A stretch of DNA of 23,776 bases from a virus. The stretch covers positions 1 through 23,776 of IMG/VR virus record IMGVR_UViG_3300008459_000403; one strand, given 5' to 3'. Numbering within the stretch: the first letter of the stretch is position 1; each line of letters starts with the position of its first letter. Below are positions 5,784 to 22,279 of this stretch, one piece after another. Both the position numbers and the translations under genes were made by a program. The notes below the pieces were generated by a model. The model was not told where the DNA came from, made no database searches, and saw nothing but the letters and a program-made list of their open reading frames with translations.

Positions 5784-5791
5784 TATTTATA
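5784..5791 (+). promoter_or_regulatory. late-type promoter box ATATTTATA upstream of the HAEG fibre gene
   Basis: The box lies between two genes and ends 10 bases before ATG 5802. This copy also overlaps a forward T4-type TATAAATA at 5788-5795, the only box here where both readings occur together. Confidence 0.6.
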
Positions 5792-5801
5792 AATAAAACA
5801 C

Positions 5802-8327
5802 ATGCCATTAATTTTAAGATCAGTTAAAGGTTCAAAATTATCTATCCCTGAGATGGATGGTAACCTTACATATTTAGCTTCAACTTTATCAGGTTCAGTA
5901 ATACAAGTTACAGGTTCATTAATAAATGCTTCTAATACTCCAATTACTGCTTTATCTTTTTCAGGTGATGGAAGTCAATTAATAAATGTAACAGCATCAT
6001 ATATAACATCTTCTAATGTTTATGGTCCAAATGGAGCTAATAGTATATTAAGTTCATCTTATGCTTTAAGTGCTTCTCAAGCTGTGAGTAGTTCTTTTGC
6101 TGTAAGTTCTTCATACACGGTAAGTAGTTCTTTTGCTGTAAGTTCATCTTATGCTTTAAGTGCTTCATATGTAAATCCACTTAACCAAAATGTTCAAATT
6201 ACGGGCTCATTATTAATATCAACAGGAAGTTTTATAATAAGTACAGGTTCATTAAAACAATCAACAGCAGCTTATTATGTTACTGATGTAACTACAGGAG
6301 CAGCATCTGATATTTATTTTAATCTAAAAGATCATGATATTCAATTTATAGGAGTAAATAAAACATTTAATGGTGGAGGACCTACTGCTTCATTGCCTCT
6401 TTTATCTCAAAATGTTGGTAGAACTTTTCAAATAACTAATACTTACGGAAGTCAATTACATATTAGTAAATCTGTTTCTGATGGTTTATCTAATTTAAAA
6501 GATACATCAGTGGATGTAGGAGGAGTAGATATCCCATCAGGTGAAACTTTTAGATTTACAGCTTCACCAACTACAACAGGATATTGGTATTATGAAAATT
6601 TAAATATTGTAACTTCATCTTCATATGCTTTAAGTAGTTCATTTGCAACAACAGCATCTTATGCTAATACTATTAATCCTATTCAAACTTCTAGTATACA
6701 ATTAAGTGGTTCATTAACAATAAATGGACAATTAATAGTAGGAGGAAATACTATAACAGCAGCATCAGTAGGAGGCTCAGATACTCAAATCCAGTTTAAT
6801 AGTGGAAGTGTATTTGCTGGATTAGCAAGTTTAGCTTTTATATATCAAAGTCAATCTTTACAACAAGGTAACTCAACAATTGCAAATGGTCTTTATTCAC
6901 ATGCTGAGGGACAGCAAACTGAAACATCAGGATTTTATTCTCATGCTGAAGGATATCAAACTCTAGCATCAGGATCACACTCACATGCTGAAGGTGATCG
7001 AACTCTAGCATCAGGATCATACTCACATGCTGAAGGTCGTCAAACAACTGCTAGTGGTAATGCAAGTCATGCTGAAGGTCGTCAAACTCTAGCATCAGGA
7101 CCATGGTCACATGCTGAAGGATATCAGACCATAGCATTAGGTTCATACACACACGCTAAAGGTTTCTTAACTGTAGCTTTAGGTAATTATTCACATACCG
7201 AAGGAAATCAAACTGTAGCATCAGGAGCATATTCACATGCTGAAGGATATTTAACTACAACAAGAAATCAATATTCACATGCTGAAGGAGCTGTGACATA
7301 TGCTCTTCAAGAACATTCACACGCCGAAGGTTATGGTACAAGAGCTGATGGAATAGGTGCTCATGCTGAAGGTCAATCTACATACGCTTCTGGTCAATAT
7401 TCACATACTGAGGGATATTTAACTTCAGCCTCAGGATTTGGCTCTCATGCTGAAGGTCAATTCACACATGCTTCTGGTGGTCTATCACATGCTGAGGGAA
7501 CATTCACTGAAGCTCTTGGTGAGTTTTCACATGCTGAAGGAGCTTATAATGTAGCCTTGGGAACTAATGCTCATGCTGAAGGTATTTACACAATAGCATC
7601 AGGTAATACTAGTCACGCTGAAGGTAGTGGTTCTCAAGCATTAGGAGCAAGTTCTCATGCTGAGGGTTATTTAACTATAGCATCTGGTTCTTCTTCTCAT
7701 ACTGAAGGACAAGAAACAATAGCTTCGGGTTCTTTTTCTCATGCTGAAGGATATCTAACAATAGCCTCAGGTTCATATTCACATGCCGAAGGAGTAGGTA
7801 GTAAAGCTATAGGTGAATCTTCACATGCTGAAGGAAAGAGTACTATATCATTAGGTGATTATTCTCACGCTGAAGGCCAAACTACTATCGCTTATGATCT
7901 TGGATCACATGCTGAAGGCTTAAAAACATTAGCATTAGGTCAGTTTTCACATACTGAAGGATATTTAACTACAGCCTCAGGACTTTATTCTCATGCTGAA
8001 GGTTCAGGAAGTATATCATTAGGTATGGCTTCTTACGCTGGAGGAAACCGAACTATAGCATCTGGATCTCATCAAACAGTAGTAGGTACACTTAATGCTC
8101 AAGGAGACACTACAAGTTATTTTATTGTGGGAGGAGGAAATAAAAGTACTGGGGCTAGAAAAGATGCTTTTAAAGTAACACATAGTTCATCTATTATGGT
8201 AGCTACTCAAAGTTCTGCTCCTGGATGGGTAGGGATTGAAGGTGAGATGGTACCTGCGAATAATGGAGGCAGTTATTATATTTATACTTATATAGGTGGA
8301 GCATGGAGATCAGCTTCATTATCTTAA
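5802..8327 (+). CDS. trimeric-adhesin-like tail fibre with 28 HAEG repeats
   Basis: 841 aa. The N-terminus (MPLILRSVKGSKLSIPEMDGN) is a conserved start I know from phage fibre-like proteins and may attach to the virion. Residues about 85-125 are stalk repeats (SSSFAVSSSYALSASYV), like those of the 663-aa gene. Residues 365-756 are 28 gapless 14-residue units, consensus YSHAEGxxTxASGx. They resemble the YadA/Hep_Hag head repeats of trimeric autotransporter adhesins, which form a left-handed beta-roll. The array is capped by HQTVVGTLNAQGD. A C-terminal domain of about 70 residues follows (YFIVGGGN, DAFKVTHSSSIMV, GEMVPANNGGSYYIYTY) and may be the tip. The protein is probably a trimeric receptor-binding fibre. 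A late-type box precedes the gene. Confidence 0.75.
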   Translation: MPLILRSVKGSKLSIPEMDGNLTYLASTLSGSVIQVTGSLINASNTPITALSFSGDGSQLINVTASYITSSNVYGPNGANSILSSSYALSASQAVSSSFAVSSSYTVSSSFAVSSSYALSASYVNPLNQNVQITGSLLISTGSFIISTGSLKQSTAAYYVTDVTTGAASDIYFNLKDHDIQFIGVNKTFNGGGPTASLPLLSQNVGRTFQITNTYGSQLHISKSVSDGLSNLKDTSVDVGGVDIPSGETFRFTASPTTTGYWYYENLNIVTSSSYALSSSFATTASYANTINPIQTSSIQLSGSLTINGQLIVGGNTITAASVGGSDTQIQFNSGSVFAGLASLAFIYQSQSLQQGNSTIANGLYSHAEGQQTETSGFYSHAEGYQTLASGSHSHAEGDRTLASGSYSHAEGRQTTASGNASHAEGRQTLASGPWSHAEGYQTIALGSYTHAKGFLTVALGNYSHTEGNQTVASGAYSHAEGYLTTTRNQYSHAEGAVTYALQEHSHAEGYGTRADGIGAHAEGQSTYASGQYSHTEGYLTSASGFGSHAEGQFTHASGGLSHAEGTFTEALGEFSHAEGAYNVALGTNAHAEGIYTIASGNTSHAEGSGSQALGASSHAEGYLTIASGSSSHTEGQETIASGSFSHAEGYLTIASGSYSHAEGVGSKAIGESSHAEGKSTISLGDYSHAEGQTTIAYDLGSHAEGLKTLALGQFSHTEGYLTTASGLYSHAEGSGSISLGMASYAGGNRTIASGSHQTVVGTLNAQGDTTSYFIVGGGNKSTGARKDAFKVTHSSSIMVATQSSAPGWVGIEGEMVPANNGGSYYIYTYIGGAWRSASLS
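6894..8069 (+). repeat. 28 x 42-bp in-frame repeat array (HAEG units)
   Basis: The array is 1176 bp, exactly 28 x 42, with no insertion or deletion. Each unit encodes a 14-residue turn. Histidine is present in units 1-27 and becomes Tyr in unit 28 (SYAGG). The Glu of HAEG becomes Lys in unit 7. Units 2-5 and 19-21 are most alike at the DNA level (shared 'actctagcatcagga' and 'aatagc..caggttc' stretches), which suggests recent internal duplication. It is coding sequence, not a CRISPR: there are no constant repeats with unique spacers. Confidence 0.9.
8279..8286 (+). promoter_or_regulatory. possible late-type box inside the fibre gene's 3' end
   Basis: An exact ATATTTATA occurs at 8278-8286, inside codons for YIYTY, ending 54 bases before ATG 8341. 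It is the only exact copy found inside a gene, and it lacks the A-rich sequence that follows the intergenic copies. It could drive the 79-aa gene or be chance. Confidence 0.25.
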
Positions 8328-8340
8328 TAAAAAATAAAAA

Positions 8341-8580
8341 ATGGAAACAAAAGTTTTAACACAAGAAGAAATTACTAGTTTAAAAGAAATTCAAAGTAAA
8401 AGAATTTATTTAACTGAGCAGTTTGGAGTTTTAGAAGTACAATACGAGACTCAAAAACAATCACTAACAAGTGAACTATATACTTTACTAAAACAAGAAG
8501 AACAAATAGGATCCCAATTACAAGAAAAGTATGGAAGTGGTACTATTAATTTAGATGAAGGAAAATTTATAAGTGATTAG
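8341..8580 (+). CDS. small coiled-coil phage protein, function unknown
   Basis: 79 aa. Almost all of residues 5-62 is predicted helix with heptad-like spacing of hydrophobics (ITSLKEIQSKRIYLTEQFGV, then LEVQYETQKQSLTSELYTLL). The end is YGSGTINLDEGKFISD. Proteins with this layout (a helical hairpin, then 'KYGxGxINxxxGxFI') recur in T4-like phages beside structural genes, but I know of no assigned role. It is the only gene here ending in TAG. The start follows the fibre-gene stop by 13 A-rich bases. It may be a virion or assembly protein. Confidence 0.65.
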   Translation: METKVLTQEEITSLKEIQSKRIYLTEQFGVLEVQYETQKQSLTSELYTLLKQEEQIGSQLQEKYGSGTINLDEGKFISD

Positions 8581-8598
8581 TTTTGACATATTTTAAGA

Positions 8599-8606
8599 TA
8601 TTTATA
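8599..8606 (+). promoter_or_regulatory. late-type promoter box upstream of tail sheath gene
   Basis: ATATTTATA in the 52-base gap before the sheath gene, ending 26 bases before ATG 8633. The sequence after it is almost free of G (AACAAACAAAATCAATTTAA). Confidence 0.65.
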
Positions 8607-8632
8607 AACAAACAAAATCAATTTAAAATAAC

Positions 8633-10348
8633 ATGGCAGAAACTTTAATATCACCTGGTGTATTAGCAAGAGAAAATGATACATCATTTGTTACCGCCCA
8701 ACCAATAACTGTAGGAGCAGCTATCATAGGTCCAACAGTAAAAGGTCCTGTTGAAATACCTACTATTGTATCTTCATATAGTGAATATGTGAATACATTT
8801 GGTGACGTTCTTACAAGTGGTAGTGATACTTATTCTTATTTCACTTCTATAGCGGCTTATAATTACTTTGTTAATGGTGGTGAAACACTATTAGTAGCAA
8901 GAGTAGTATCAAGTTCAACAGATTACACCTCAGCTATTAGTACAGCTATTAGCGGAAGTCCACAAGCTGCTTCTCAACCAGCTTTTGTATTAGAAACAAT
9001 TTCTAAAGGTGTAATAACAAATAGTACAAGTACTCAAGACTCAAAAGGAGCTTTACCTAGTGGATCTGTAAATAACATTCGTTGGCAGATTGTTAATCCA
9101 AACACATCTTCAGGTACATTTAACCTATTAGTAAGACAAGGTAACGATACAACAAATTCAAATATTGTATTAGAGACATGGACTAACTTATCATTAGACC
9201 CACAAGCTTCTAATTATGTAGCTAAAGTAATTGGAGACTATACTTACAATTATAATCCAAGTACAGTACAAATTGAAATATCAGGTTCTTATCCTAATGC
9301 TTCAAAATATATTAGAGTAAAATCAGTTAATTTACCTACTCCAGGATATTTTACAAACTCAGGAACAGCTAAACCTCAATACACTTCTTCTATTCCAATA
9401 GCAGCAAGTGGAACATTTGGTGGTGCTGAAGGTGATGTAAAAGGAGGAGCTAATTTTTATGAAAATATTAATAGTTCAAATACTCAAGGTTTAATAGCAG
9501 CTAACTATACAAATATGGTTAATTTGTTATCAAATCAAGATGACTATAGATTTAATGCTTTATTCACTCCTGGTTTATATAGTGCAGATTATTCTTCTAT
9601 AATATCAAGTATTATTACTAATACACAAAATAGAGGAGATAATATCTATGTAATGGATTTAGTACCTTATAGTACAACTACTGCAACCACAGTAATAAAT
9701 GAGGCTGCTAATTATGATACTTCATATGCTGCTACTTACTGGCCTTGGTGCCAAATTAAAGACCCAGGAACAGGTAAGAATGTTTGGGTTCCAGCTTCAA
9801 CAATGATAGCGGGAGTTTACGCTTATAATGATAAAGTAGCAGCTACTTGGTTCGCACCAGCAGGTATAAACAGAGGAGGATTATCAACAGTAATCAGAGC
9901 AGCTCAAAAATTACCTCAATCATCTCGTGATGTATTATATGATGGTAAAGTAAATCCAATAGCAACATTCCCAGGTACTGGAACTGTAGTGTATGGTCAA
10001 AAGACATTACAAGTAAATTCATCAGCCCTTGATCGTGTAAATGTTAGAAGATTATTAATCACACTTAAGTCTTATATCTCTCAAGTTGCAAATAACTTAG
10101 TATTCGAACAAAATACTAATGCAACAAGAAATCAATTCTTAAACCAAGTTAATCCATATCTTGAAACAGTACAACAAAAACAAGGTTTATATGCTTTCAG
10201 AGTAGTAATGGATGATACTAATAATACAGCAGATGTAATAGATAGAAACCAATTAATAGGTCAAATTTATCTACAACCAACTAAAACAGCTGAATTTATT
10301 TATCTAGACTTCAACATTACACCTACAGGAGCTACTTTCCCAGTGTAA
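8633..10348 (+). CDS. contractile tail sheath protein (gp18-like)
   Basis: 571 aa, against 659 in T4. The N-terminus (SPGVLARENDTSF, then VGAAIIGPTVKGPVEIPTIV, then YVNTFGD) is the hallmark of myovirus sheath proteins, where this segment takes part in the strand exchange that links subunits. The centre (about 130-290) is a variable outer domain. The C-terminal half has the usual conserved core: 'YWPWCQIKDPGTGKNVWVPA' (surface-core junction), 'WFAPAGINRGGL', 'VNVRRLLITLKSYISQVANN', and a final strand 'FIYLDFNITPTGATFPV'. The sheath surrounds the tube and contracts to drive it through the host envelope. It precedes the tube gene, as in T4 (18-19), has its own late-type box and no Shine-Dalgarno sequence. 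Confidence 0.97.
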   Translation: MAETLISPGVLARENDTSFVTAQPITVGAAIIGPTVKGPVEIPTIVSSYSEYVNTFGDVLTSGSDTYSYFTSIAAYNYFVNGGETLLVARVVSSSTDYTSAISTAISGSPQAASQPAFVLETISKGVITNSTSTQDSKGALPSGSVNNIRWQIVNPNTSSGTFNLLVRQGNDTTNSNIVLETWTNLSLDPQASNYVAKVIGDYTYNYNPSTVQIEISGSYPNASKYIRVKSVNLPTPGYFTNSGTAKPQYTSSIPIAASGTFGGAEGDVKGGANFYENINSSNTQGLIAANYTNMVNLLSNQDDYRFNALFTPGLYSADYSSIISSIITNTQNRGDNIYVMDLVPYSTTTATTVINEAANYDTSYAATYWPWCQIKDPGTGKNVWVPASTMIAGVYAYNDKVAATWFAPAGINRGGLSTVIRAAQKLPQSSRDVLYDGKVNPIATFPGTGTVVYGQKTLQVNSSALDRVNVRRLLITLKSYISQVANNLVFEQNTNATRNQFLNQVNPYLETVQQKQGLYAFRVVMDDTNNTADVIDRNQLIGQIYLQPTKTAEFIYLDFNITPTGATFPV

Positions 10349-10364
10349 GGATTAGACATATAGA

Positions 10365-10372
10365 TATTTATA
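10365..10372 (+). promoter_or_regulatory. late-type promoter box upstream of tail tube gene
   Basis: ATATTTATA in the 43-base sheath-tube gap, ending 19 bases before ATG 10392 and followed by ATAAAATAAAG. A separate box for the tube gene would allow it to be expressed independently of the sheath. Confidence 0.65.
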
Positions 10373-10391
10373 ATAAAATAAAGAAAATAAA

Positions 10392-10880
10392 ATGGCAATA
10401 TTAGACGCAAACGAAATATTTTTCACAGCCTTTGAACCAAAACAGGCTAATAGATTCATCATGTATATGGATGGTGTTCCTAGCTACCTTATCAAAGGTG
10501 TAAACGCAGTCACATTATCTCAAGGTGAAGTAATATTAAACCACATTAACGTTTATCGTAAAGTTAAAGGTAAAACTACTTGGGGAGATATACAAATGAC
10601 ACTATTTGATCCAATTACTCCTTCTGGTGCTCAATCAGTAATGGAATGGGTTCGTTTACACCATGAATCAGTAACAGGTAGAGATGGATATTCTGATTTC
10701 TATAAAAAGGATTTAGTAATCGATGTTTTAGGCCCTGTAGGTGATATTGTAGGTGAATGGATTATCAAAGGCGCATACATTAAAGAAGCTAATTTTGGTG
10801 ATTATAACTGGGATACAGAAAACCAAGCAGTTAACATCACAATGACAGTAGCAATGGATTATTGCGTATTAAATTTCTAA
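10392..10880 (+). CDS. tail tube protein (gp19-like)
   Basis: 162 aa, nearly the length of T4 gp19 (163 aa). Recognisable family features are an N-terminal 'EPKQANRFIMYMDGVPSYLI', then 'VILNHINVYRKVKGKTTWGD', then 'MTLFDPITPSGAQSVMEWVR', and a closing strand 'NITMTVAMDYCVLNF'. These belong to the T4 gp19 branch of the tube/Hcp beta-barrel fold. Hexamer rings stack on the baseplate to form the channel through which DNA and the tape measure leave. It directly follows the sheath gene and is closed by a strong terminator, suggesting high and separately controlled transcription. G and C are used more at third positions here than in the fibre genes. Confidence 0.95.
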   Translation: MAILDANEIFFTAFEPKQANRFIMYMDGVPSYLIKGVNAVTLSQGEVILNHINVYRKVKGKTTWGDIQMTLFDPITPSGAQSVMEWVRLHHESVTGRDGYSDFYKKDLVIDVLGPVGDIVGEWIIKGAYIKEANFGDYNWDTENQAVNITMTVAMDYCVLNF

Positions 10881-10897
10881 AATTAAATATTTTAAAA

Positions 10898-10926
10898 GAG
10901 TCCGCCTTTTGGCGGACTTCTTTTTT
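10898..10926 (+). terminator. Rho-independent terminator after the tube gene
   Basis: An 8-bp perfect stem AGTCCGCC (10899-10906) pairs with GGCGGACT (10911-10918) around a TTTT loop. It can be extended by a G-T pair and is followed by TC and six T (10921-10926). The GC-rich stem stands out in this AT-rich sequence. It lies 18 bases after the tube stop, and a late-type box starts 8 bases after the T run. Confidence 0.9.
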
Positions 10927-10933
10927 CTCTACA

Positions 10934-10941
10934 TATTTATA
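10934..10941 (+). promoter_or_regulatory. late-type promoter box upstream of the gp26-family gene
   Basis: ATATTTATA directly behind the terminator, ending 18 bases before ATG 10960. Because the terminator would stop transcription from upstream, this box is the most economical source of transcripts for the chaperone-like pair. Confidence 0.65.
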
Positions 10942-10959
10942 AACAAAAAGTTATTATAA

Positions 10960-11959: not shown

Positions 11960-11975
11960 TTCCTTAGTCCTTTAA

Positions 11976-11983
11976 TATTTATA
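11976..11983 (+). promoter_or_regulatory. late-type promoter box upstream of tape measure gene
   Basis: ATATTTATA in the 40-base gap, ending 16 bases before ATG 12000. It is the only intergenic copy with G rather than A directly after the core (ATATTTATAG). Confidence 0.6.
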
Positions 11984-11999: not shown

Positions 12000-14366
12000 A
12001 TGGCTAGTAATCAATTATCAGCTGCAGAATTAGCAGAATTAGTACAATATTATAAACAGATTGAAAATTTAAGTCAATCTGCAGCTACGAACGCTGCTAA
12101 TTTAGCTCAACAACAAGGCAATGCTCGTATCCAATTAGAGCGTTTACGTAGAGAATATCAAGATTGGACAAGTGATATTGATAGTTCATTACAAAGTTTT
12201 AAAGAAATATCATCTGAACTTAATAAATTTAAAACAGGAATAAATGATTCTAAAAAATCTTACTCAAATTTAGAATCATTAGCTCAAAAACTTCAATATC
12301 ATCAAAAAGGTATATCTACTTTATCATCTAGAGAATTAAGTAATCTTCAAAAGAAAGCTAAACAACAAATCAAGAATTTAGAAACTTCCCAAAATACATT
12401 AACAAATGATAGAACTCGATTACTAGAAGAACAAAGAAGATATGAAAATATTATATACCAAAAAGAAATATTAGGTCAATCTACTGATAGAGAATATAAA
12501 AAATTAATTGAAATTGAAAGTACTCTTAGTCAAATTAGTAAATCATATGCTTTAAATCAAGAACTTTTAGATAGTGAAAATCAATCTTTAGAACATACTT
12601 TAGCAACAATATCTGAAACATTAAAAAAACAGAAGGCAATTGAAAAATCTATGGGTCTTACTGGGGCTTTAATGAAAGGTATAAGTAAAATTCCGTTTTT
12701 AGGAGACTTACCAGGAATGAGAGAAGTATTAGGTGAAGTTGAGGTTGAAATAAGCGCGATCCAAAAAAATACAGGTAAAACGGTCTCTAGAACTGAGGCT
12801 ATGGGAATGGCTTTTAAAAAGATGGGACCTGTTATTAAAGATGCTTTTACAGATCCTTTAGTAACTATTGGATTATTAGTTAAAGGTTTTAAAATGTTCT
12901 TAGAGTTAGGATTTGCTGTTGATAAACAAGTAACAGAAATGAGTAAATCTATGGCTGTTTCTAAAGATGTAGCGGCTTTAACTCGAGATAGATTTGTTGA
13001 GATACAAAGTTCAAGTAATAATCTTTTAGAAACAACTAATAATTTAGTTGATGCACAAGGACAATTAGCTAAATCTTTTGGTACTACTTTAGGATTTACA
13101 GATGCTCAATTAAAAGATCAAATAATGTTAACCAAACAAGTTGGTCTTGAAGAAGAATCAGCAGCTGGTTTACAACAATTAGCTTTAGCAAATGGACAAT
13201 CAGCTAATGACATTTTAAAATCTACAGTTAAACAAACTGCTGCTTTAGCTAGACAAACAGGTGTTCAATTAGATAATAGAAAAGTATTAACAGAAGTAGC
13301 AAAAGTATCAGGACAATTAAGATTACAATATCAAAATAATCCTGAGTTAATAGCTAAGGCAGTTATACAAACTCAAAAATTAGGTATTAGCTTTGAAACA
13401 GCTAAAAATATGGCTAATAAATTATTAGATTTTGAAAATTCTATCTCTAGTGAATTAGAAGCAGAATTATTAACAGGTAAACAACTTAATTTAGAAGAAG
13501 CTAGATTATTAGCATTACAAGGTAAATCTGCTGAAGCTGCTGCTTTAATAGCAGAACAAGTAGGTAGTGCTGCTGAATTCTCAGAACTAAATGTTATAGC
13601 TCAACAATCATTAGCTGAGGCTGCTGGAATGAGTGCTGATGAATTAGCTAATTCATTAGTATACCAAGAAAATTTAGCGGAATTAGGTAGTCAAGCTAAA
13701 CAACAAATTGAAGAACAAGTTCAAAAATTAAAAGATCAAGGTAAAACAGAAGAAGCTAACCAGTTGATGAGATCAATAGGAAATGCTGATTCTGCTGAAG
13801 CAGCTTTAAAAGAATTAGATGCTCAAAATACATTTAATGCTGCTGTTGATAAATTAAAAGGTATGCTATCAGATATAGTTAGTGGACCAGCTCAAAAATT
13901 TGTTGATTTATTAGGTAAACTAGCTTCAAACGCTTCTTTAATTAAAGGTATATTTTATACAATAGTAGGTTTAGCAAGTGCTTTAGCTGCTTCTATGATT
14001 GTAACAGCAGCTGTCACTAATCCTGCTGGTTTTTTAATAGGATTAGCTGCTGCATTTGGAGGTATAGCATTTTTAAAATCAGCAACGAGTACTCCACCTC
14101 CAATTGAGAAAAAAGGAGATGTAATGTATGATCCTAATGGAGGCCTTATAGTATCTTCCCCTCAAGAAGGAGCATTATTTCAATTAGCTAAAAAAGACGG
14201 AATGATGGCAGGTCCTGTAACTACTAATACTGGAGGTGGAGGAGAAAACAATAAAGCTATAGAAGAACAAAATGCATTATTTGAAAAATTCATTAATAGA
14301 CCTGTAAAAGTAGACGTAGGTAATTTCTTTAATGACTCAGCTAGATCAGCAGTTCGAATTCAATAA
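12000..14366 (+). CDS. tape measure protein (gp29 position)
   Basis: 788 aa. Residues 1-220 are strongly helical and rich in Gln, Ser, Leu and Lys with coiled-coil spacing. The middle is Ala/Gln-rich helix, for example 'LEEARLLALQGKSAEAAALI'. Residues about 643-697 are hydrophobic (GIFYTIVGLASALAASMIV, then GFLIGLAAAFGGIAF), as is usual in tape measures. The C-terminus contains 'GDVMYDPNGGLIVSSPQEGA', a short segment I often see near the ends of these proteins. It lies inside the tube, sets tail length and probably enters the host membrane on ejection. At about 0.15 nm per residue it would give a tail near 118 nm, slightly longer than T4. It follows the chaperone-like pair, as expected. Confidence 0.85.
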   Translation: MASNQLSAAELAELVQYYKQIENLSQSAATNAANLAQQQGNARIQLERLRREYQDWTSDIDSSLQSFKEISSELNKFKTGINDSKKSYSNLESLAQKLQYHQKGISTLSSRELSNLQKKAKQQIKNLETSQNTLTNDRTRLLEEQRRYENIIYQKEILGQSTDREYKKLIEIESTLSQISKSYALNQELLDSENQSLEHTLATISETLKKQKAIEKSMGLTGALMKGISKIPFLGDLPGMREVLGEVEVEISAIQKNTGKTVSRTEAMGMAFKKMGPVIKDAFTDPLVTIGLLVKGFKMFLELGFAVDKQVTEMSKSMAVSKDVAALTRDRFVEIQSSSNNLLETTNNLVDAQGQLAKSFGTTLGFTDAQLKDQIMLTKQVGLEEESAAGLQQLALANGQSANDILKSTVKQTAALARQTGVQLDNRKVLTEVAKVSGQLRLQYQNNPELIAKAVIQTQKLGISFETAKNMANKLLDFENSISSELEAELLTGKQLNLEEARLLALQGKSAEAAALIAEQVGSAAEFSELNVIAQQSLAEAAGMSADELANSLVYQENLAELGSQAKQQIEEQVQKLKDQGKTEEANQLMRSIGNADSAEAALKELDAQNTFNAAVDKLKGMLSDIVSGPAQKFVDLLGKLASNASLIKGIFYTIVGLASALAASMIVTAAVTNPAGFLIGLAAAFGGIAFLKSATSTPPPIEKKGDVMYDPNGGLIVSSPQEGALFQLAKKDGMMAGPVTTNTGGGGENNKAIEEQNALFEKFINRPVKVDVGNFFNDSARSAVRIQ

Positions 14367-14374
14367 TATTTATA
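14367..14374 (+). promoter_or_regulatory. late-type promoter box upstream of the 58-aa gene
   Basis: ATATTTATA starts at the last base of the tape measure stop codon and ends 13 bases before ATG 14388. It is followed by ATAAAACAAAAC. Its presence supports the small gene behind it and would serve the baseplate genes after it. Confidence 0.65.
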
Positions 14375-14387: not shown

Positions 14388-14564
14388 ATGGGAATACTAA
14401 CAAAACTTCAAACTCAAGGCTCATTACTAACTAATTTAGATGGGTCTACACCAAACAAATATAGTGGAATAAATTCAGTTCTAAATCCTGAATCTTTAAA
14501 AGGTTCACAATTAGATTTAAATGGAACTACCCCAGACAAATATTTAGACAATCTACCTAAATAA
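14388..14564 (+). CDS. 58-aa protein with a duplicated LxGxTPxKY motif, function unknown
   Basis: This short gene starts at ATG 14388 and stops at TAA 14562-14564, three bases before the next start. Support comes from the promoter box ahead of it, tight packing and matching start context. The motif 'NLDGSTPNKYSG' recurs as 'DLNGTTPDKYLDN' about 26 residues later. The N-terminus MGILTKLQTQGS resembles that of the next protein (MGLLNLKTDLKS), suggesting a shared docking element or an old partial duplication. I recall similar short proteins next to baseplate genes in related phages but know no function. It is probably a minor baseplate component. Confidence 0.7.
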   Translation: MGILTKLQTQGSLLTNLDGSTPNKYSGINSVLNPESLKGSQLDLNGTTPDKYLDNLPK

Positions 14565-14567: not shown

Positions 14568-16217
14568 ATGGGATTACTTAATCTAAAAACAGATCTTAAG
14601 TCTCTCAAGTATGGTAATGATCAACGTGGTGGTGGTTCAAGTAACCAACCATACATAGTCACTCCTATACCTGATGGATATGCTGATACTTCGCCAGATT
14701 TTATATTGCGTAATGGATATCTTTCTAATCCTATTAGTTTGGCTCAAGATGTTAGTGGATTTATTCCTGTAAATTCTGTACAGGATGTTAGTAGATTAAC
14801 TAAATTATTTGCAGATACTAAATCTCCTAATGGTCTTTTATTTATTGCTAAACAAGAACTTTTAGAAAGACAAAATGTAGAAATACCTGGTGGATTTGGT
14901 AGAGTTTATAATCCGGCAGGTACACTGGCTCAAGCGGCTGTGTTATCTGGTGGTTACCACTTGAATAAACAAGGATTAAATCCATTTCAACGAGGATATT
15001 TTAATGGAGGAGAAAATGGATATTATCAAACTACTTTAAATGATTATAAAGTAGATATTAATAGATTAACATCATTATATTATAAACAATCTTCTCAAGC
15101 GGCGCTAACTGGAGAAAATTTTACTACTCAAAATAAATCATATAAATATTATAATATAAGTGCTGATGGTGAGTCAACCAATATGATTTCATACGATGGA
15201 GGACCAGGAAGTGTATTAGGTGTAGGTAAAACTAATATTAGATTTACAGGTACAGGATATAGAGAAAGAACTAATAATTCAATAGTTAAAACAGATGCTT
15301 TAGAGATTTTTAAAAGATTTACCCCAAGAAAGGACACTCTTCCTAATTTTAATACAGATACTGGAGCTTCTGTACGTTATATTACACCCGCTCAAGGAAA
15401 TGGAAGTACGCTTTTAACATCATTAAATAATACATACAATCCTGGAATAAGTGAATATGGAGGTGGAAGTATAGGAAATTTTAATAGAGAATATACATAT
15501 GACACTTCATATACTGAATATAAAAGTATACCTCCAAAAAAAGATCCTAATTCTTTTTATGCTGCGGATGAAATTAATGCTTCTAGAATATTATTTTCTG
15601 ATAGAGATGATATTATTGATGAATATAAAAATAAGGATTTAATTAAATTCTATTTTGAAGTAATAAACAATGATACTATTGAGGATACTGAGAATAGTTA
15701 TTTATTTTTTAGAGCATATATTAATAATTTAGGTGATAGTTATAAAGCTGAGTGGCAATCTTACAAATATGTAGGTAGAGGTGAAAATTTTTACAAATAC
15801 GGTGGCTTTTCTAGAGATATTTCATTATCATTCACAATATATGCTCACTCAAGAAAAGAAATGATACCACTTTATAATAAATTAAATTATTTATTAGGAA
15901 CAACAGCCCCAAGTTATTCAGGTGCTGGTTTAATGAGAGGTAATTTTATAAAAATGACTGTTGGGGATTATCTATTAGATGTTCCTGGTATTATTCAAAG
16001 TATAAATTTAAAACCTAGTTTTGAAGCAGGATGGGATATTAATAGAGATAAATATGAAAATGGAAAACTATTTACATATGATGAGGATAATAGAGATGAT
16101 GAAAATGGGACTAAATTTGTAGGTCAAATCCCACGTTTAATAGAAGTAGATTTATCATTCACTCCAGTTCATTCATTCACACCTCAAATTGGAGCAAGTT
16201 TTATTAGAAATATATAA
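14568..16217 (+). CDS. baseplate protein, candidate tail-tube junction (gp48/gp54 type)
   Basis: 549 aa. Residues 1-360 are Gly/Tyr/Asn-rich and poorly characterised. Residues about 365-549 look like a compact domain: 'LIKFYFEVINNDT', 'AEWQSYKYVGRGENFYKYGG', 'SLSFTIYAHSRKEMIPLYNK', 'MTVGDYLLDVPGIIQSINLK', and a final 'PRLIEVDLSFTPVHSFTPQ'. A strand pattern in which a central domain meets a 'G-x-Y-L-x-D-x-PG' hairpin and an 'I-x-V-D-x-S-F-T-P' strand occurs in tube-like baseplate proteins that nucleate the tail tube. Position after the tape measure and before gp53 fits this (T4 order 29-48-54). The gp48/gp54 assignment is tentative; a structural baseplate role is more certain. Confidence 0.6.
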   Translation: MGLLNLKTDLKSLKYGNDQRGGGSSNQPYIVTPIPDGYADTSPDFILRNGYLSNPISLAQDVSGFIPVNSVQDVSRLTKLFADTKSPNGLLFIAKQELLERQNVEIPGGFGRVYNPAGTLAQAAVLSGGYHLNKQGLNPFQRGYFNGGENGYYQTTLNDYKVDINRLTSLYYKQSSQAALTGENFTTQNKSYKYYNISADGESTNMISYDGGPGSVLGVGKTNIRFTGTGYRERTNNSIVKTDALEIFKRFTPRKDTLPNFNTDTGASVRYITPAQGNGSTLLTSLNNTYNPGISEYGGGSIGNFNREYTYDTSYTEYKSIPPKKDPNSFYAADEINASRILFSDRDDIIDEYKNKDLIKFYFEVINNDTIEDTENSYLFFRAYINNLGDSYKAEWQSYKYVGRGENFYKYGGFSRDISLSFTIYAHSRKEMIPLYNKLNYLLGTTAPSYSGAGLMRGNFIKMTVGDYLLDVPGIIQSINLKPSFEAGWDINRDKYENGKLFTYDEDNRDDENGTKFVGQIPRLIEVDLSFTPVHSFTPQIGASFIRNI

Positions 16218-16218
16218 A

Positions 16219-16518: not shown

Positions 16519-16520
16519 TT

Positions 16521-19500
16521 ATGGCTTTATTAGGAGAAAGTTTTGAACCTTGGGTAAAAGAACAAATTGATTTACGTCAAGATATATTAAGTGGAAAAAA
16601 AGATAATATTGGTAGTTCATTTACTAGAGATCAAGAATTAAAATATACTTTATCTAAATCTCCATTTATACGTTTAACTTCTGGAGTTAATATTGATAGT
16701 GGTGATAGTGGAACAGCTAAAATCCAAAATTTAGGATTCAAAGATGATGCTACTAATTATTTAGGTAATAAATTAGCCTCTAAATATATTTTATTTTCTT
16801 CTAGATTTGATAATGAATTCACTAAGGGTGTTAATTATGAAACATTAAGTCCATCATATGGTTTTTCTTCTGATCCTGAGTATGGATTAGTTCCACCTCC
16901 TGGTATTTTATCAGTAGATGTTAGAGCATTAAATAGAGGTTCATTACGAGAAGCTACTATAAAAATAGTATGTCATAACCTATCACAATTTAAAGTAATT
17001 GATACTTTATTTTTAAAATTAAGATATTCTTTATTATTAGAATGGGGCCATACTGTATATTTTAATAATGATGGTAGTTTAGCTTCTCCTTTAAGTATAC
17101 CTAATATTTCAACTGAATTTTTAAAAGGAGATTTTACTCAAGAAACATTATTGGATAAAATTGAAAGTGAAAAGAAAAAATCATTTGGTAATTATGATGC
17201 GTTTTTTGGTATAATTAAAAATTTTGATTGGCAATTACTTGAAAATGGTAGCTATGATATTACTGTTAAAGCTATTTCTACAGGTGATGTTATTGAATCT
17301 TTAAAAGTTAATACTAATTATCCTTTCTCTAAAAGAACTGAAGGGGATAATCCAGAACCTATATATTTAAAATCTACTTTACATAAAATATTAGGTGATA
17401 TAAGACAAAAAATTAATGATGGAGGACCAGGAGCACCTGGGTATTTAAATGGGTTTAAAACTTCTCCTACAGATAATTCATTAGATACCGGAACAATTAG
17501 TAGTTTTACAGATTTTTTATACAATTATAAAAGAAGTGGAGATAATATAAATGTTACTTCACCAAATGATGATTTAACTACAAATGAAGGATTTAGAATT
17601 TGGTTTGCAAATCTTGAAAAAATAAAAGGTGCAGATGGAAAAGAGATAACAGCTATCCAATATTATATTAAATTAGGAACTTTACTTCGTATTATAGAAT
17701 CATTTTTAATTTATTATGATAAGACTAAAAAAGATGGAACAGATGGAAACAATCCTCCAGTTTTTAAGATAGATCATAATTATAATACTAATTTTTGTTT
17801 AACAACTCTTACTCATTTATCTGTTGACCCTAGAGTATGTATTATACCATTAAGTTATGATTCCAAATTGAATGCCAATTTAGCAGGAGAATATACTAAA
17901 GTTACAAAATTATATAGATATACATTTAATATAACAAGACCTAATAATGAAAAGTGGATAGAAAGTGATGAGGCTTTTGAGAAAGAAGAATTCTTATCAG
18001 AAGATCAAATACCAGAGGGAGTTGAAATAAATAGATTAGCAGAGGTTTATTCTGTCTCTGATATTAATGTTAATAATTTAAATTTTACAAAAAGAATAAC
18101 TGAGAATGCAACTTTAGGTTTCGAAAAAACATTAGATGCACCATTAAGTGATTTAGATAAAACAGATTTAGAAAGTACAAAACAACAAATTAAAAGTATT
18201 TTATCCAATGCATTTTTAAATAATCCCAGAGGTTCTATTGATAATGCTGGACCATATGTTAATGGTTTACTATCAAATGTACAAACTCAATATATTAATG
18301 AAACTGTTAAAAAAGAAGGTCTTGGTACTCTTAATTATTTATTAGGTCTTGACATTAAAGAAAATGTAGATTATAAAGTAAATAGATTCTTAACAGGATA
18401 TGTTGAAATTCCATCTGTATCATATTATAAAAATGAGAACACCGCTGCTATATTAGAAAATTTATATTTAGAACAAGTTAATAATCAAGTAGGAGGAGAT
18501 AATTTATTTAGAAGTACTGATGATGCTTTAAAAGCTAAAACAATGCATATCCAAGTTAATATTGGATATATTATAAAAACTTTAGATAATAATATTGATG
18601 AAGAAGGAAATATCTCAGTCTATGATTTTCTAAAAGAATTAATGTCTGGTATAAAAGGATCTTTATGTAATATAAATGATTTTGAAATTGTTTATGAAGA
18701 AAGTACTAATACATTTTCAATTATAGATAATGCTTTATTAGCTTCACTGTATAAAAATGGAGATGATGCTAGATTCAATATAAATTTGTTAAAAAATAAT
18801 TCTATAGATCCAGATATATCAAATGGTTTTATAAAAGGAAATGGAAGTTTTATTACTAATTTTAGTTTAAAGACAGAATTATTTTCTAGAATAGCGAATA
18901 CTATAGCTATAGGAGCTCAAGCTAATGGTAATACTACTATATCAAACTCAACAGCTTTTAGTGAATTTAATAGAGCATTGACTGATAGAGTATTAACTAC
19001 TAAAGTTAATAAAAATGATCCTGAAGAAAATGATAAAGGAGTAGATATTAAATTTAAACAATTATATAGTAATTATATTAAATTTAGAACAAATTATTTT
19101 ACTAGAATAATAAATGAATCAGATGTTTCTGCAGCTCAAAGATATGTTAGAGAAATAATACAATATGAGTTAGGAGAATATACTAAAAGTAAAAGAATAC
19201 CAGGTGTTGGATTTATTCCTCTAAATCTTCAATTAACAATGGATGGTTTAAGCGGAATGAAAATATATCAAACCTTTGATATAGATGAAACTTTATTACC
19301 TGATGAGTATAAAAGTAGAATTAGATTTATTATTAGAGGAGTTAATCATAAAATAGATAAAAATGGTTGGGAAACATCAGTTGAAACTCTTTCTTTACCT
19401 AAAGAAAAAAAGATAGATTATAGTGTAAAATTAACAACAATCCCAAAGGATGCTTCTGGCGGAATAAAATCAAAAAGAACTCCAACAGCTCCTGTTGGAA

Positions 19501-19955
19501 GTGTTAACGCTAATAGATTAAGAGAAGCTATAAAAAGTGCTGGGTATTTAGATGGACGACCTGAAAAAGGTACTCAATTAGACGATTCTGGGTATGATAT
19601 TTTACCAGCTACAGCGGATGCAGGAATTGCTTTTATTAATGATTTAAAAAAACGGTATCCTACTTATAAAATTATTTTCACAGCAGGGAATGATCTTTGG
19701 CATGTTGAGAATAGTAAAAGTAATATTCACCCATCAGGAAAAGCTCTTGATATTTCTATTGTCGGGGTAGACCAAACTAAAGTTAAAAATCCTACAGGAG
19801 AAAATGCCTATGTTGCTAAACCATATACTGACCTAGAAAAATTACTAATTAATGATATTGCAGCTATAGCTAGGAAATATTTTAAAAGTGTAGGTGATGA
19901 ATATCAATTCCCAGTTAAATGGGCTACAGCAGGACATATACATATGAATATATAA
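16521..19955 (+). CDS. baseplate hub protein with C-terminal M15-like peptidase (tail lysin)
   Basis: 1144 aa, the largest gene here. The N-terminal region includes 'PPPGILSVDVRALNRGSLRE', 'KVIDTLFLKLRYSLLLEWGH' and 'ITVKAISTGDVIESLKVNTN'. I associate this layout with large hub proteins of T4-like phages of Bacteroidota and marine hosts. About residues 920-970 are beta-rich with 'IRFIIRGVNHKIDKNGWETS'. A Ser/Thr/Pro-rich linker follows near 975-995. Residues about 995-1144 look like a D-Ala-D-Ala/L-Ala-D-Glu peptidase of the M15 type: H1070 and D1077 in 'HPSGKALDIS', and H1139/H1141 in 'AGHIHMNI', are the likely zinc ligands. The domain would cut host peptidoglycan at injection, as T4 gp5 lysozyme does by another chemistry. 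Confidence 0.75.
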   Translation: MALLGESFEPWVKEQIDLRQDILSGKKDNIGSSFTRDQELKYTLSKSPFIRLTSGVNIDSGDSGTAKIQNLGFKDDATNYLGNKLASKYILFSSRFDNEFTKGVNYETLSPSYGFSSDPEYGLVPPPGILSVDVRALNRGSLREATIKIVCHNLSQFKVIDTLFLKLRYSLLLEWGHTVYFNNDGSLASPLSIPNISTEFLKGDFTQETLLDKIESEKKKSFGNYDAFFGIIKNFDWQLLENGSYDITVKAISTGDVIESLKVNTNYPFSKRTEGDNPEPIYLKSTLHKILGDIRQKINDGGPGAPGYLNGFKTSPTDNSLDTGTISSFTDFLYNYKRSGDNINVTSPNDDLTTNEGFRIWFANLEKIKGADGKEITAIQYYIKLGTLLRIIESFLIYYDKTKKDGTDGNNPPVFKIDHNYNTNFCLTTLTHLSVDPRVCIIPLSYDSKLNANLAGEYTKVTKLYRYTFNITRPNNEKWIESDEAFEKEEFLSEDQIPEGVEINRLAEVYSVSDINVNNLNFTKRITENATLGFEKTLDAPLSDLDKTDLESTKQQIKSILSNAFLNNPRGSIDNAGPYVNGLLSNVQTQYINETVKKEGLGTLNYLLGLDIKENVDYKVNRFLTGYVEIPSVSYYKNENTAAILENLYLEQVNNQVGGDNLFRSTDDALKAKTMHIQVNIGYIIKTLDNNIDEEGNISVYDFLKELMSGIKGSLCNINDFEIVYEESTNTFSIIDNALLASLYKNGDDARFNINLLKNNSIDPDISNGFIKGNGSFITNFSLKTELFSRIANTIAIGAQANGNTTISNSTAFSEFNRALTDRVLTTKVNKNDPEENDKGVDIKFKQLYSNYIKFRTNYFTRIINESDVSAAQRYVREIIQYELGEYTKSKRIPGVGFIPLNLQLTMDGLSGMKIYQTFDIDETLLPDEYKSRIRFIIRGVNHKIDKNGWETSVETLSLPKEKKIDYSVKLTTIPKDASGGIKSKRTPTAPVGSVNANRLREAIKSAGYLDGRPEKGTQLDDSGYDILPATADAGIAFINDLKKRYPTYKIIFTAGNDLWHVENSKSNIHPSGKALDISIVGVDQTKVKNPTGENAYVAKPYTDLEKLLINDIAAIARKYFKSVGDEYQFPVKWATAGHIHMNI

Positions 19956-19964
19956 ATTAATATT

Positions 19965-20498
19965 ATGGCTTATATTCCTAAAAATAAGATACAAACTAAT
20001 CTTTATACATCTGGAGGAGAGTATGCTTATGCTTCTGATTTAAAAAATTATATAGGATATTATTATAAATTATATAATGGAAAATTCTTTACAGGTAAAA
20101 CTCCTGATGAATTAGATTCTAAAGAATTAACATATACACCATTTATTGATGGAGGAAACGCAGTTCCATTACCATTAATTATTCCTTATAATCCTCTTTT
20201 ACCTACAGAACAAGATTATCAAATAGGTCAATTTACAAGATACTTTAATATTAAAAGAAACCAAACTATTTTTACAGAGATTTCTAAAGAAACATATAAT
20301 GATTTTAAACAACAAAATTCTAATATACCTTGGAAATTATACAGAGTATTCTCATTATCATGGGTTTTAAAAGGAAACATTGATAATGTAGCTCAAGTTA
20401 ATAAAAACATAACTGAATTAACAGAGGCAAAAGAAAAAGTATTAGGATTAAGTCTATATCTAAAAGAAAATTGGACCCAATATTATAAACCCCTTTAA
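19965..20498 (+). CDS. conserved baseplate-region protein of unknown function
   Basis: 177 aa. It begins 'MAYIPKNKIQTNLYTSGGEY', followed by 'YIGYYYKLYNGKFFTGKTPD', then 'DYQIGQFTRYFNIKRNQ', 'IPWKLYRVFSLSWVLKG' and a C-terminal 'LSLYLKENWTQYY'. It is rich in Tyr and Asn, with no enzymatic motif. I recognise this arrangement (a YTSGxE start, a Y-x-G-Y-Y-x-x-Y-x-G-K strand pair, then RYF) from T4-like phages, always beside baseplate genes and annotated as hypothetical or structural. It is the last gene of the structural block; a promoter of the other type follows. It is probably a virion protein, perhaps a wedge or fibre connector. Confidence 0.6.
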   Translation: MAYIPKNKIQTNLYTSGGEYAYASDLKNYIGYYYKLYNGKFFTGKTPDELDSKELTYTPFIDGGNAVPLPLIIPYNPLLPTEQDYQIGQFTRYFNIKRNQTIFTEISKETYNDFKQQNSNIPWKLYRVFSLSWVLKGNIDNVAQVNKNITELTEAKEKVLGLSLYLKENWTQYYKPL

Positions 20499-20505
20499 AA
20501 AATAG

Positions 20506-20535
20506 TTTGGCCTCCAAAATATAATTACTATATTA
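20506..20535 (+). promoter_or_regulatory. candidate early/middle promoter of the polymerase gene
   Basis: TTTGGC (20506-20511) and TATATT (20529-20534) are separated by 17 bases, within the longer shared string AGTTTGGCCT. The only similar arrangement in the window is before the gp32 gene. An A tract (TTTAAAAAAT) lies just upstream. The predicted transcript would start about 15-20 bases before ATG 20558. Confidence 0.5.
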
Positions 20536-20557
20536 GAGCTAATAAGGGTTACAAAAT

Positions 20558-21838
20558 ATGTTTTGGATTATAGAAAATAAAGAGCAGTTAGAAACGTTTT
20601 ATCTCAATGAATACAAGGAGGTGTTTGTAGAGATTATTCCGTTCCATAATAATATACATCCTATATTAAACAATGTCTCTCTAATCTATATCAGGCCTTT
20701 AACAGATACTAAAGGATACATAATATGTGTTGATCATAGTGAAACATTATCTGTAGGTGAAACTTATATTAAACGTCTATTCCAACAATTAGAAACAATT
20801 TACGTTCGAGATAAAAAATCGTTTCTATATTATTTCCAGCTAAACAAAGTAATAGACATTTCCTCAATCAAATGTGTAGAAACACCTAAACTACCTATAT
20901 TTGATATCTTCTACAGACAACATCCAAATAAAACAGATATAAATAAAATTATACCCATAGTTAAACATTATGAGGTATGTGAGAATATTTATCACCAGCT
21001 AAAAGAAGTATTAGAGGCTCCTAAACCAGAATATGTAAAGTTCTATAATAAAGGAGCATTAGCTTTCTTTGGTATTGAGAAAAAGGGAATAAAAATAAAC
21101 ACAGATAAATTCTATAAATTTTATGAACCTAACAATGACATCTATTCTGTACAAGATGATATCATATACACACAATATAACCTCAATACTACAACGAGAA
21201 GACCTTCTAATGCTTTCAATGGCATTAACTTTGCTGCTCTAAATAAAGACAATCACTCTAGAGCAAGTCTAATCCCACGTAATAATGAATTTATTGAAAT
21301 TGATATCTCAGCTTATCACCCAACACTCGCAGGGCGTCTTGTCAATCATACGTTTGATAATCCTGATATTCATTCTGACTTTGCTCAAATGTATGGGGTA
21401 AGTTATGCTGAAGCAAAAGAATTAACATTCAAACAATTATATGGAGGTATTTTCAAAGAATACCAACATTTAGAATTTTTCCAGAAAGTACAAAATCATA
21501 TTACTACTCAATGGGAATTATTTAATAATCAAGGTTATATAGATGTTCCTGTTTCTAATTATAGATTTGAAAAAGATAAATTGGATAATATGAATCCACA
21601 AAAACTTTTCAACTATACCTTGCAAAATTTAGAAACCTCTATTAACATACAGATATTACTAAAAATACATAAAATATTACTTAATAAGTACAGTAAAGTG
21701 GTTTTATACACATACGATTCATTTCTTATAGATTGGGATGAAGATGAGGAGGATGTTTTAGATCAACTAAAATCCATATTTAACGAGATGAATTTATCAA
21801 TTAAAATTAATAGAGGAAAAAATTATGACTTTAAATAA
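20558..21838 (+). CDS. family-A-like DNA polymerase (divergent, short)
   Basis: 426 aa. The C-terminal half carries PolA-type motifs: 'TTTRRPSNAFNGINFAALNK' (211-230), 'SRASLIP' with R235, motif A 'EIDISAYHP' with D249, motif B as K287-x3-F291-x3-Y295-G, and motif C 'LYTYDSFLI' with D387. Both metal-binding Asp are thus present. Motif B has Tyr283 where Taq has Arg659, and motif C reads YDS instead of HDE. Residues 1-200 may be a remnant exonuclease-type domain, but I see no DxE triad. Family A members of this size are far shorter than Pol I. It could be the replicase, replacing the family B gp43 of T4, or an accessory polymerase. It overlaps the next gene by 14 bases and lies near gp32 and uvsX. 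Confidence 0.75.
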   Translation: MFWIIENKEQLETFYLNEYKEVFVEIIPFHNNIHPILNNVSLIYIRPLTDTKGYIICVDHSETLSVGETYIKRLFQQLETIYVRDKKSFLYYFQLNKVIDISSIKCVETPKLPIFDIFYRQHPNKTDINKIIPIVKHYEVCENIYHQLKEVLEAPKPEYVKFYNKGALAFFGIEKKGIKINTDKFYKFYEPNNDIYSVQDDIIYTQYNLNTTTRRPSNAFNGINFAALNKDNHSRASLIPRNNEFIEIDISAYHPTLAGRLVNHTFDNPDIHSDFAQMYGVSYAEAKELTFKQLYGGIFKEYQHLEFFQKVQNHITTQWELFNNQGYIDVPVSNYRFEKDKLDNMNPQKLFNYTLQNLETSINIQILLKIHKILLNKYSKVVLYTYDSFLIDWDEDEEDVLDQLKSIFNEMNLSIKINRGKNYDFK

Positions 21839-22271
21839 TAGTTATCATACGTATGACATGGACATACACACAATTTTTAAAGATCTGAATAACAAATTAT
21901 TCTGTACGTTTACACCAGAAGATGGGCTTGAAACGTTAGTAGAAAATATCGCATCTTCTTATACTATCATGTATAATAAAATGTTTGTGCTTTTTGTTAA
22001 GAGCACGAACGAGTATGTTGTCACTTATAATGTTGATCAAGGCAACATCAGTTCAATTCCTGAAAATACAATTTTAGTTCACCGTAAAAAAGAAACTAAT
22101 TCGCTTTATACTATCAATGCTATAAATGAATTAATAAAGAAATTAAATGGTGGTGTAGTAGATACTTCTTATAGAATCAACTGGCAACACTATCGTAATT
22201 GTATTTTACTTACCCAACACAATGAGTTAAAGCAACTTAATACAAAAGTGCACTCTATAATAGAGCTTTAA
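21825..22271 (+). CDS. unknown protein coupled to the DNA polymerase gene
   Basis: 148 aa from ATG 21825, inside the last codons of the polymerase gene and preceded by AGAGG about 8 bases away. A second ATG at 21858 (residue 12) is also possible. Visible segments are 'MFVLFVKSTNEYVVTYNVDQ', 'ENTILVHRKKETNSLYTINA', 'LNELIKKL'-like helix near 105-112, and 'YRINWQHYRNCILLTQ'. The mix of strands and helix suggests a small globular protein of about 17 kDa. I recall relatives beside replication genes in other phages but no function. The overlap suggests coupled synthesis with, and perhaps binding to, the polymerase. No nuclease, ATPase or DNA-binding motif is visible. Confidence 0.65.
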   Translation: MTLNNSYHTYDMDIHTIFKDLNNKLFCTFTPEDGLETLVENIASSYTIMYNKMFVLFVKSTNEYVVTYNVDQGNISSIPENTILVHRKKETNSLYTINAINELIKKLNGGVVDTSYRINWQHYRNCILLTQHNELKQLNTKVHSIIEL

Positions 22272-22279
22272 TATTTATA
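22272..22279 (+). promoter_or_regulatory. late-type promoter box at the start of the gp32 leader
   Basis: ATATTTATA begins at the last base of the preceding stop codon, followed by ATAAACACAAAG. It is 152 bases before the gp32 start, unlike the 10-26 base spacing elsewhere. T4 gene 32 is also transcribed from several promoters of different timing. Confidence 0.5.

Follow-up and report, generated by a model that had tools for sequence, protein, structure and literature searches.

The 23,776-base stretch of viral DNA analysed here in full (IMG/VR record IMGVR_UViG_3300008459_000403, positions 1 to 23,776; hereafter the window) carries a recurrent 9-mer, ATATTTATA, in the gaps between its genes. 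Judged from its sequence context, this box is best read as a -10-type promoter element that would be read forward, in the direction of the genes, and it is probably a late promoter element opened through a phage-encoded, gp55-like sigma-2 factor. The analyses below give good support to the idea of a late element particular to this lineage and an altered late sigma factor, and we call the box a new variant of the T4-type late promoter. The window is 31% G+C, consists of one run of + strand genes (stray overlapping open reading frames (ORFs) aside) and reads as part of a T4-like contractile-tailed phage.

With both strands counted, the exact 9-mer occurs eight times on the + strand of the window and once on the - strand. 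Seven of the + copies lie between genes and share one orientation, precisely at the positions listed in the original prediction (Table 1), and the eighth, which that prediction had likewise placed inside a gene, is possibly a chance copy; the - strand copy, at 15141, is intragenic and was not listed there. Six of the intergenic copies end 10, 26, 19, 18, 16 and 13 nucleotides (nt) before an ATG, matching the 10-26 bases given originally, and those at 14366 and 22271 share one base, the last, with the stop codon before them. Across the whole window the nine copies compare with 2.85 expected, and none of 100 shuffles reaches nine. When the intergenic gaps alone are shuffled piece by piece, seven forward copies stand against 0.12 expected, with no reverse copy, and none of 2000 such shuffles reaches seven. 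The box is present in seven of the eight gaps of at least 21 nt that have genes on both sides, the exception being the gap before 20558; none was found in the shorter gaps of the window or in the upstream region cut at its left end.

The same word recurs in related phages. The tail sheath protein of the window has 53% identity with its counterpart in Flavobacterium phage immuto (host Flavobacterium sp. LMO8) and, across 71% of its own length, 48% with the sheath of Microcystis phage Mel-JY01. Querying IMG/VR with the sheath of the window returned at least 600 matches, from which 80 loci were kept, and upstream sequences were tabulated for 63 of them (match from residue 1 and a usable start; a few were omitted for brevity). 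In 61 of these 63 loci the 70 nt ahead of the sheath gene contain TATTTAT, with A (51 loci), C (7) or G (3) as the preceding base; its reverse complement ATAAATA is found there in 2 of 63. The upstream stretches are distinct in 56 of the 63 loci, and one of the two that lack TATTTAT had only 15 nt of sequence.

We then counted the motif over 1.33 Mb, comprising the window, four long phage genomes (immuto and the IMG/VR records G001, G002 and G013) and 76 loci, leaving out L009, L011, L012 and L078, which are copies of the window, G001 or G002. Noncoding regions were taken from an in-house ORF caller (ATG starts, 40-70 amino acids minimum) and not from curated annotation. The 8-mer ATATTTAT occurs at 446 noncoding sites in the gene direction and 18 in the opposite direction, and at 101 forward and 66 reverse sites in coding DNA; over 115,686 noncoding and 1,209,663 coding bases, this amounts to 38.6, 1.6, 0.83 and 0.55 sites per 10 kb, respectively, so that its noncoding density is about 25-fold higher in the gene direction. 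These 446 sites include duplicates; 397 of them fall no more than 80 nt from a start, and 372-373 are distinct. Had the motif been as frequent in coding DNA, or in the two orientations alike, this would by the terms of the original prediction have told against it; the excess in forward noncoding DNA leaves that prediction unrefuted. An unbiased tally of all 8-mers, drawn from 680 upstream regions (708 before deduplication), ranked ATATTTAT first, with 319 occurrences against 14.9 expected and 9 for its reverse complement. The full 9-mer ATATTTATA was found 249 times forward and twice in reverse in the same regions. Its common single-base variants fall at the edges (C at position 1, 24 forward; T or C at position 9, 47 and 21 forward), and within the core the leading variants, G at position 5 and C at position 3, reach 15 and 12 against the 249 of the consensus. 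The core of the box is TATTTAT, usually with an A before and an A after it.

The original prediction had described the 9-mer as the reverse complement of the T4 late promoter core, so that a factor reading it in the T4 way would face away from the genes, and had proposed a distinct promoter element of this lineage or an altered late sigma factor. The second part of this interpretation is supported, and the first is an artefact of the word itself. The octamer TATTTATA differs from the T4 octamer TATAAATA only at the two central bases (TAT-AA-ATA to TAT-TT-ATA); because the TAT..ATA flanks are self-complementary, "reverse complement of TATAAATA" and "AA to TT" denote the same change, and read along the genes the box matches T4 at six of eight positions. 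Over 372 sites the box ends a median of 19 nt before the ATG (quartiles 14-25), and its 3' flank carries signal (consensus AATAAAA), the 5' flank little. With the A of ATATTTAT numbered 1, position 13 is a purine in 97% of the 152 sites that lie at least 22 nt before an ATG, with G at 29% there and 4% one position earlier; this peak looks like a transcript start, predicted 5 nt past the box. In the window, the box at 10933 lies just beyond a terminator of the upstream transcript (Table 1). As a positive control, the T4 late region counted identically gave 12 forward and 1 reverse copies of TATAAATA, so the counting method recovers a known orientation.

The distance to the ATG, the signal in the 3' flank, the purine peak, the upstream terminator and the T4 control are grounds for reading the box forward, as is the background-level frequency of forward TATAAATA in the 680 upstream regions (21 against 283 for TATTTATA). 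That frequency also speaks against promoters in the T4 orientation, which would send antisense transcription away from the genes. Read on the other strand, the box (TATAAATAT) does contain the T4 late core, but the flank signal and the fixed distance both lie on the gene side, and we give this explanation a negligible chance. No -35-like element is common to most of the 373 sites. The best G-bearing upstream word, TTTTG at -17, occurs in 23 of them, and an A-run, AAAAA at -17, in 48; TTTTGA ahead of the sheath gene seemed promising at first as a -35-like element and was rejected, as the 373 sites hold no majority word.

The late module of Mel-JY01 extends these observations. It has eight noncoding ATATTTAT sites in the forward direction and none in reverse, and six of the eight sit 33-37 nt before a start, a spacing that leaves room for the GGAG-like sequences visible ahead of several of its starts. 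The same word in a different host and at a different distance fits a promoter read by a phage factor. It is also pertinent to the idea that the element acts in RNA, as a translation start signal or a processing site. Being mostly 10-35 nt before start codons, the element is near enough to touch the initiation region, yet this distance shifts in Mel-JY01 while the word stays the same. Moreover, the box directly follows a terminator and is absent from the short gaps inside the gene clusters of the window, and the purine peak occupies a single position, as expected for a transcript start. An action in RNA is, in our estimation, highly improbable.

A role as a late promoter element is consistent with the genes that the box precedes. 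In the window these include the tail sheath, tail tube, baseplate-hub-like and tape measure genes. In immuto, where we took as structural the genes of two blocks delimited from the annotation (81.5-100.8 kb; 119-160.4 kb), TATTTAT boxes stand before 18 of the 56 structural starts and 18 of the 177 others, an odds ratio of 4.2 (Fisher p 2e-4), and the reverse word before 7 and 10, respectively. Virion genes have more than their share of the box without being the only genes to carry it, and from this enrichment we infer the label "late". A second class of sites in immuto, GTTG-N17-25-TA(T/A)(C/A)TTTA, was found 32 times in the forward direction and once on the other strand, and this host-like, early-type promoter lies before 28 non-structural and 2 structural starts. 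Within immuto (L091), 25 of the 32 forward early-type sites fall in the 15 kb between 60.9 and 76.2 kb, before small ORFs, which suggests an early region where most genes form units of their own. The early-type element of G002, G001 and the window has TTTGGC as its upstream half; the window has two such candidates, in each of which TTTGGC is followed by TATATTA(G/T), with 19 nt between TTTG and TATATTAG in the first and 20 nt between TTTG and TATATTAT in the second (Table 1).

These early-type sites resemble the sigma-A promoters of Bacteroidota (TTG/TTTG at -33, TAnnTTTG at -7); the late box has a TTT run too and could be a weak -7 element for the host primary sigma factor, with the genes transcribed by the host holoenzyme. 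Flavobacterial sigma-A sites are described, in the text available for PMC9723704, as variations of TAnnTTTG at -12 to -5, and many immuto boxes read TATATTTAT, which fits TAnnTTT minus the final G. However, T precedes ATATTTAT in none of the seven window boxes, so that the leading TA is missing there; T and A are fixed at the "nn" positions, TTT is followed by A and not by G, the -33 element is lacking, and no upstream TTG/TTTG element is common to most sites. In addition, the identical box is found in Mel-JY01, whose recorded host is Microcystis elabens, and a separate host-like class with a GTTG or TTTGGC upstream half exists. We therefore regard reading of the box by the host sigma factor as quite improbable, and return to a phage-encoded factor.

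The original prediction had suggested a search for a gp55-like sigma factor and for gp33 and gp45 homologues; a candidate for the first was found in relatives, and the other two were not recognised in the searches described below. PHROG profiles for the T4 late sigma factor were run against 12 records: phrog_234 matched one of them, at immuto gp118 (E 0.008), and phrog_12791 none. This protein, annotated as "hypothetical protein", has relatives in at least 600 matches. Of 32 diverse family members, 23 match Sigma70_r2 (best 9.4e-5) and 18 the late sigma family phrog_234 (best 7.7e-4), both at E <= 0.1; these are the most frequent families in Pfam and PHROG, respectively. An AlphaFold2 model of gp118 has a mean predicted local distance difference test score (pLDDT) of 75. 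In a structural comparison with this model, all 50 rows listed are RNA polymerase complexes or sigma factors, among them entries under the UniProt sigma factor names RPSH, RPSB and RPSD. In third place is T4 gp55 as part of its promoter complex (7d7c_F), with Z 9.8, 123 aligned residues and a root-mean-square deviation of 5.4, a score to be read with the caution that helical folds yield middling Z. Because the list is uniform, we assign the modelled gp118 family a sigma-2 fold; DNA binding is a prediction. The C-terminal helical domain of the protein folds confidently (pLDDT 89.8); it was considered as a possible sigma-4 domain, but neither Foldseek nor a second comparison gave a credible match and no sigma-4 emerged.

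The sigma-like gene and the TATTTAT box co-occur in immuto, G013, Mel-JY01 (sigma-like gene at E 9.6e-46) and the lineage of the window. In that lineage, where loci were fetched through the neighbouring gp6-like gene, the sigma-like gene is present in 20 of the 22 loci with at least 4.9 kb upstream, and it lies 3.2-4.9 kb before the gp6-like gene in all loci with a match. The gp45 profile PF02916 finds its target in T4 and not in immuto, Mel-JY01, G001, G002 or G013, of which G001 and G002 are incomplete. No gp33 was recognised beside the sigma-like gene, and immuto gp117 (116 amino acids) matched no PHROG at E <= 0.1. A TATTTAT box of its own also marks the gene that immediately follows the sigma-like gene, both in immuto (gp117, L091 28906-29256) and in a contig of the window's lineage (L227 1413).

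The contacts between T4 gp55 and its promoter allow the residues of the family to be set beside the bases of the box. According to the text available for PMC7892883, gp55 inserts the non-template bases A-12, A-9 and A-8 into pockets, those for A-12 and A-8 being deep; Y97 stacks on A-12, N13 and H95 touch A-9, and T99 bonds A-8. In T4 numbering, the new box retains A-12 and A-8, and -10 and -9 become T. We aligned eight gp55s jointly with 32 family members (the Atu_ph07 gp55 was trimmed by 90 N-terminal residues, and its letter at position 13 is unreliable). Y97 is Y in all eight gp55s and all 32 family members, and the F86 position is F or Y in 32 of 32. N13 has become T in 31 of 32 members and H95 has become F or Y in all of them. 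As far as an alignment can suggest, the matching of residues to bases would be only partial, with the A-12 contact residue conserved and the surroundings of -9 altered. We infer that the sigma-like protein is a diverged gp55-like sigma factor that reads TATTTATA.

Several results weigh against this assignment. At the protein level, the same aromatic change of H95 (to F) occurs in four of the eight gp55s, and T99 is replaced by G, Q or S in all 32 family members though A-8 is retained in the box, so that the predicted contact with A-8, if any, must be made differently. Foldseek with the whole gp118 model gave no match at E <= 0.001, a sequence search of the PDB with the sigma-like protein gave none, and profile-profile comparison (hhalign) with the eight gp55s was weak (E 0.033 and 0.016). 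With regard to gene content, no sigma gene was recognised in the window, a 23.8 kb fragment, and the sigma-like gene is missing from two of the 22 long loci (L221 and L281). Single-protein and profile searches of sheath-bearing IMG/VR contigs found it in none of 12; for G001 and G002 this is because the contigs stop short of the sigma locus, the longest near relative, G001 (155 kb), beginning just past it and G002 lacking the region. The box is also not confined to structural genes, given the 18 other starts in immuto and its spread along G001. Finally, two more distant groups depart from the pattern. Rhodothermus phage RM378 has three forward and three reverse copies of ATATTTATA, with no strand bias, and encodes a distant family member, a 264-residue "hypothetical protein" (L215 1222-2016; record 17032-17826; E 3.5e-4); its late box may be spelled differently. 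A marine clade with the same sigma family, whose sigma-like protein is about 60% identical to that of immuto, uses CTATTTAT (35 seen against 1.9 expected, reverse 0) and not ATATTTAT (13 forward, 24 reverse). The box shifts with the sigma lineage, at an edge position that is also variable in T4-like phages. Another word, TCGTATAT, is enriched upstream of genes in the sigma-bearing marine contigs (L112-L174).

Some of these points would suit a promoter element whose phage-encoded reader is not the gp118-like sigma but another protein, either a different sigma factor or an RNA polymerase-binding protein. The gp118-like proteins are tied to gp55 through weak sequence matches and the fold, their binding is predicted, and T99 is not conserved in the family. 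On the other hand, the sigma-like gene accompanies the TATTTAT box in the phages named above, and the clade with a roughly 60% identical sigma carries the variant box CTATTTAT. A different reader is, on balance, unlikely, and we favor the gp118-like protein. We propose that host RNA polymerase with this phage-encoded sigma-2 factor would open the TATTTAT box and that transcription would start approximately 5-6 nt downstream of it, giving short leaders of roughly 5-25 nt. The box would be a T4 late box altered at its two central bases and, as in T4, with no -35 element common to most sites. More tentatively, and with less than even confidence, we suggest that an entire branch of T4-like phages, with hosts in Bacteroidota and at least one cyanobacterium and probably corresponding to Far-T4, uses an unrecognised single-chain late sigma factor, composed of sigma-2 and its own C-terminal helical domain, which may read TAT-TT-ATA without activation by the T4 clamp and gp33.

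The T4 late promoter is described in the text available for PMC2988020 as a single 8-bp box that lies roughly one turn of the helix before the start and has no accompanying -35 element. The system proposed here resembles it (TATAAATA, -13 to -6; gp55, gp33, gp45) in having a single AT-rich octamer at -10 with no shared -35 element, AT-rich DNA downstream, head and tail genes as targets and a phage-encoded sigma-2 protein, and in six of eight box positions, including A-12 and A-8. It differs in its center, which is TT and not AA, so that the strict T4 octamer is not matched, in the gp45-type clamp, not found by PF02916 in the five relatives searched, and in the C-terminal helical domain of the sigma-like protein, which has no recognised relative. 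Lineage-specific spellings of the late box have been found in silico before: the available texts give T or A at -13 among T4-like phages, with CTAAATA in Aeromonas phage Aeh1 (PMC1524935), and NATAAATA in cyanophage S-PM2 (PMC2984593). In those variants the AAATA core is intact and the differences lie at the 5' edge, whereas here the center changes. Microcystis phage Ma-LMM01 is reported, in the text available for PMC5780444, to be without gp55 and is thought to rely on host sigma factors throughout. For the Far-T4 phages, the corresponding text of a 2015 study states that T4 core genes of transcription regulation were undetected and that transcription might differ (PMC4360716), and that of a 2020 study ties one Far-T4 phage to Bacteroidetes (PMC7198788). 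In the open-access PMC literature we found nothing relevant that joins TATTTATA with a phage promoter, nothing on Mel-JY01 and nothing that pairs "late promoter" with Far-T4, and the immuto papers there are apparently not on transcription.

Table 1. Boxes, other regulatory elements and genes of the window. Predicted transcript starts are placed by the purine peak, to within +/-1.
Feature	Position	Strand	Remarks
Late-type -10 box ATATTTATA	5783..5791	+	before ORF 5802-8327; predicted start ~5795
Late-type box	8598..8606	+	before tail sheath 8633; predicted start ~8610
Late-type box	10364..10372	+	before tail tube 10392; predicted start ~10376
Late-type box	10933..10941	+	before baseplate-hub-like 10960; predicted start ~10945
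Late-type box	11975..11983	+	before tape measure 12000; predicted start ~11987
Late-type box	14366..14374	+	before small ORF 14388-14564; predicted start ~14378
Late-type box	22271..22279	+	152 nt before single-strand binding protein (SSB) 22432; predicted start ~22283
Same 9-mer	8278..8286	+	inside ORF 5802-8327, 54 nt before ORF 8341
Intrinsic terminator of upstream transcript	10898..10919	+	9-pair stem, then CTTTTTTC; 13 nt before box 10933
Candidate early/middle promoter	20506..20536	+	TTTGGC 20506-20511, TATATTAG 20529-20536; before DNA-polymerase-like 20558
Candidate early/middle promoter	22370..22401	+	TTTGGC 22370-22375, TATATTAT 22394-22401; before SSB 22432
Tail sheath gene	8633	+	
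Tail tube gene	10392	+	
Baseplate-hub-like gene	10960	+	
Tape measure gene	12000	+	
Small ORF	14388-14564	+	
Baseplate wedge-like gene	16219	+	
DNA-polymerase-like gene	20558	+	
SSB gene	22432	+	
UvsX-like recombinase gene	23295	+	runs off window end

A few further features accompany these genes. The large ORF 5802-8327 contains many (uncounted) "SHAEG"-like stretch repeats and matches phrog_25468 (E 9e-102), a family of unassigned function; its product is possibly a tail or fibre protein. The leader of the SSB gene (22283-22431) is long, with an AAACAC/GTGTTT hairpin and a stretch, AAAGGCATT..AAGCT..TTTGGCC, that is partly kept in G001; folded as RNA, this leader does not outdo shuffled sequences overall (z -0.13). 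In T4, the leader of gene 32 mediates autoregulation of that gene. In Mel-JY01, an annotated gene for ribosomal protein S21 (RpsU; L210 7198-7425) lies within the head gene cluster.

If our reading is true, the late switch that was not detected in the Far-T4 study is found, and a candidate sigma factor for it is a protein now annotated as "hypothetical protein". The box would then be usable for mapping late operons in hundreds of uncultured phages. T4, with AA, and the lineage of the window, with TT, would represent a natural test of how a sigma-2 pocket chooses its bases at -10 and -9, and since immuto grows on Flavobacterium LMO8, the reading is open to test in culture.

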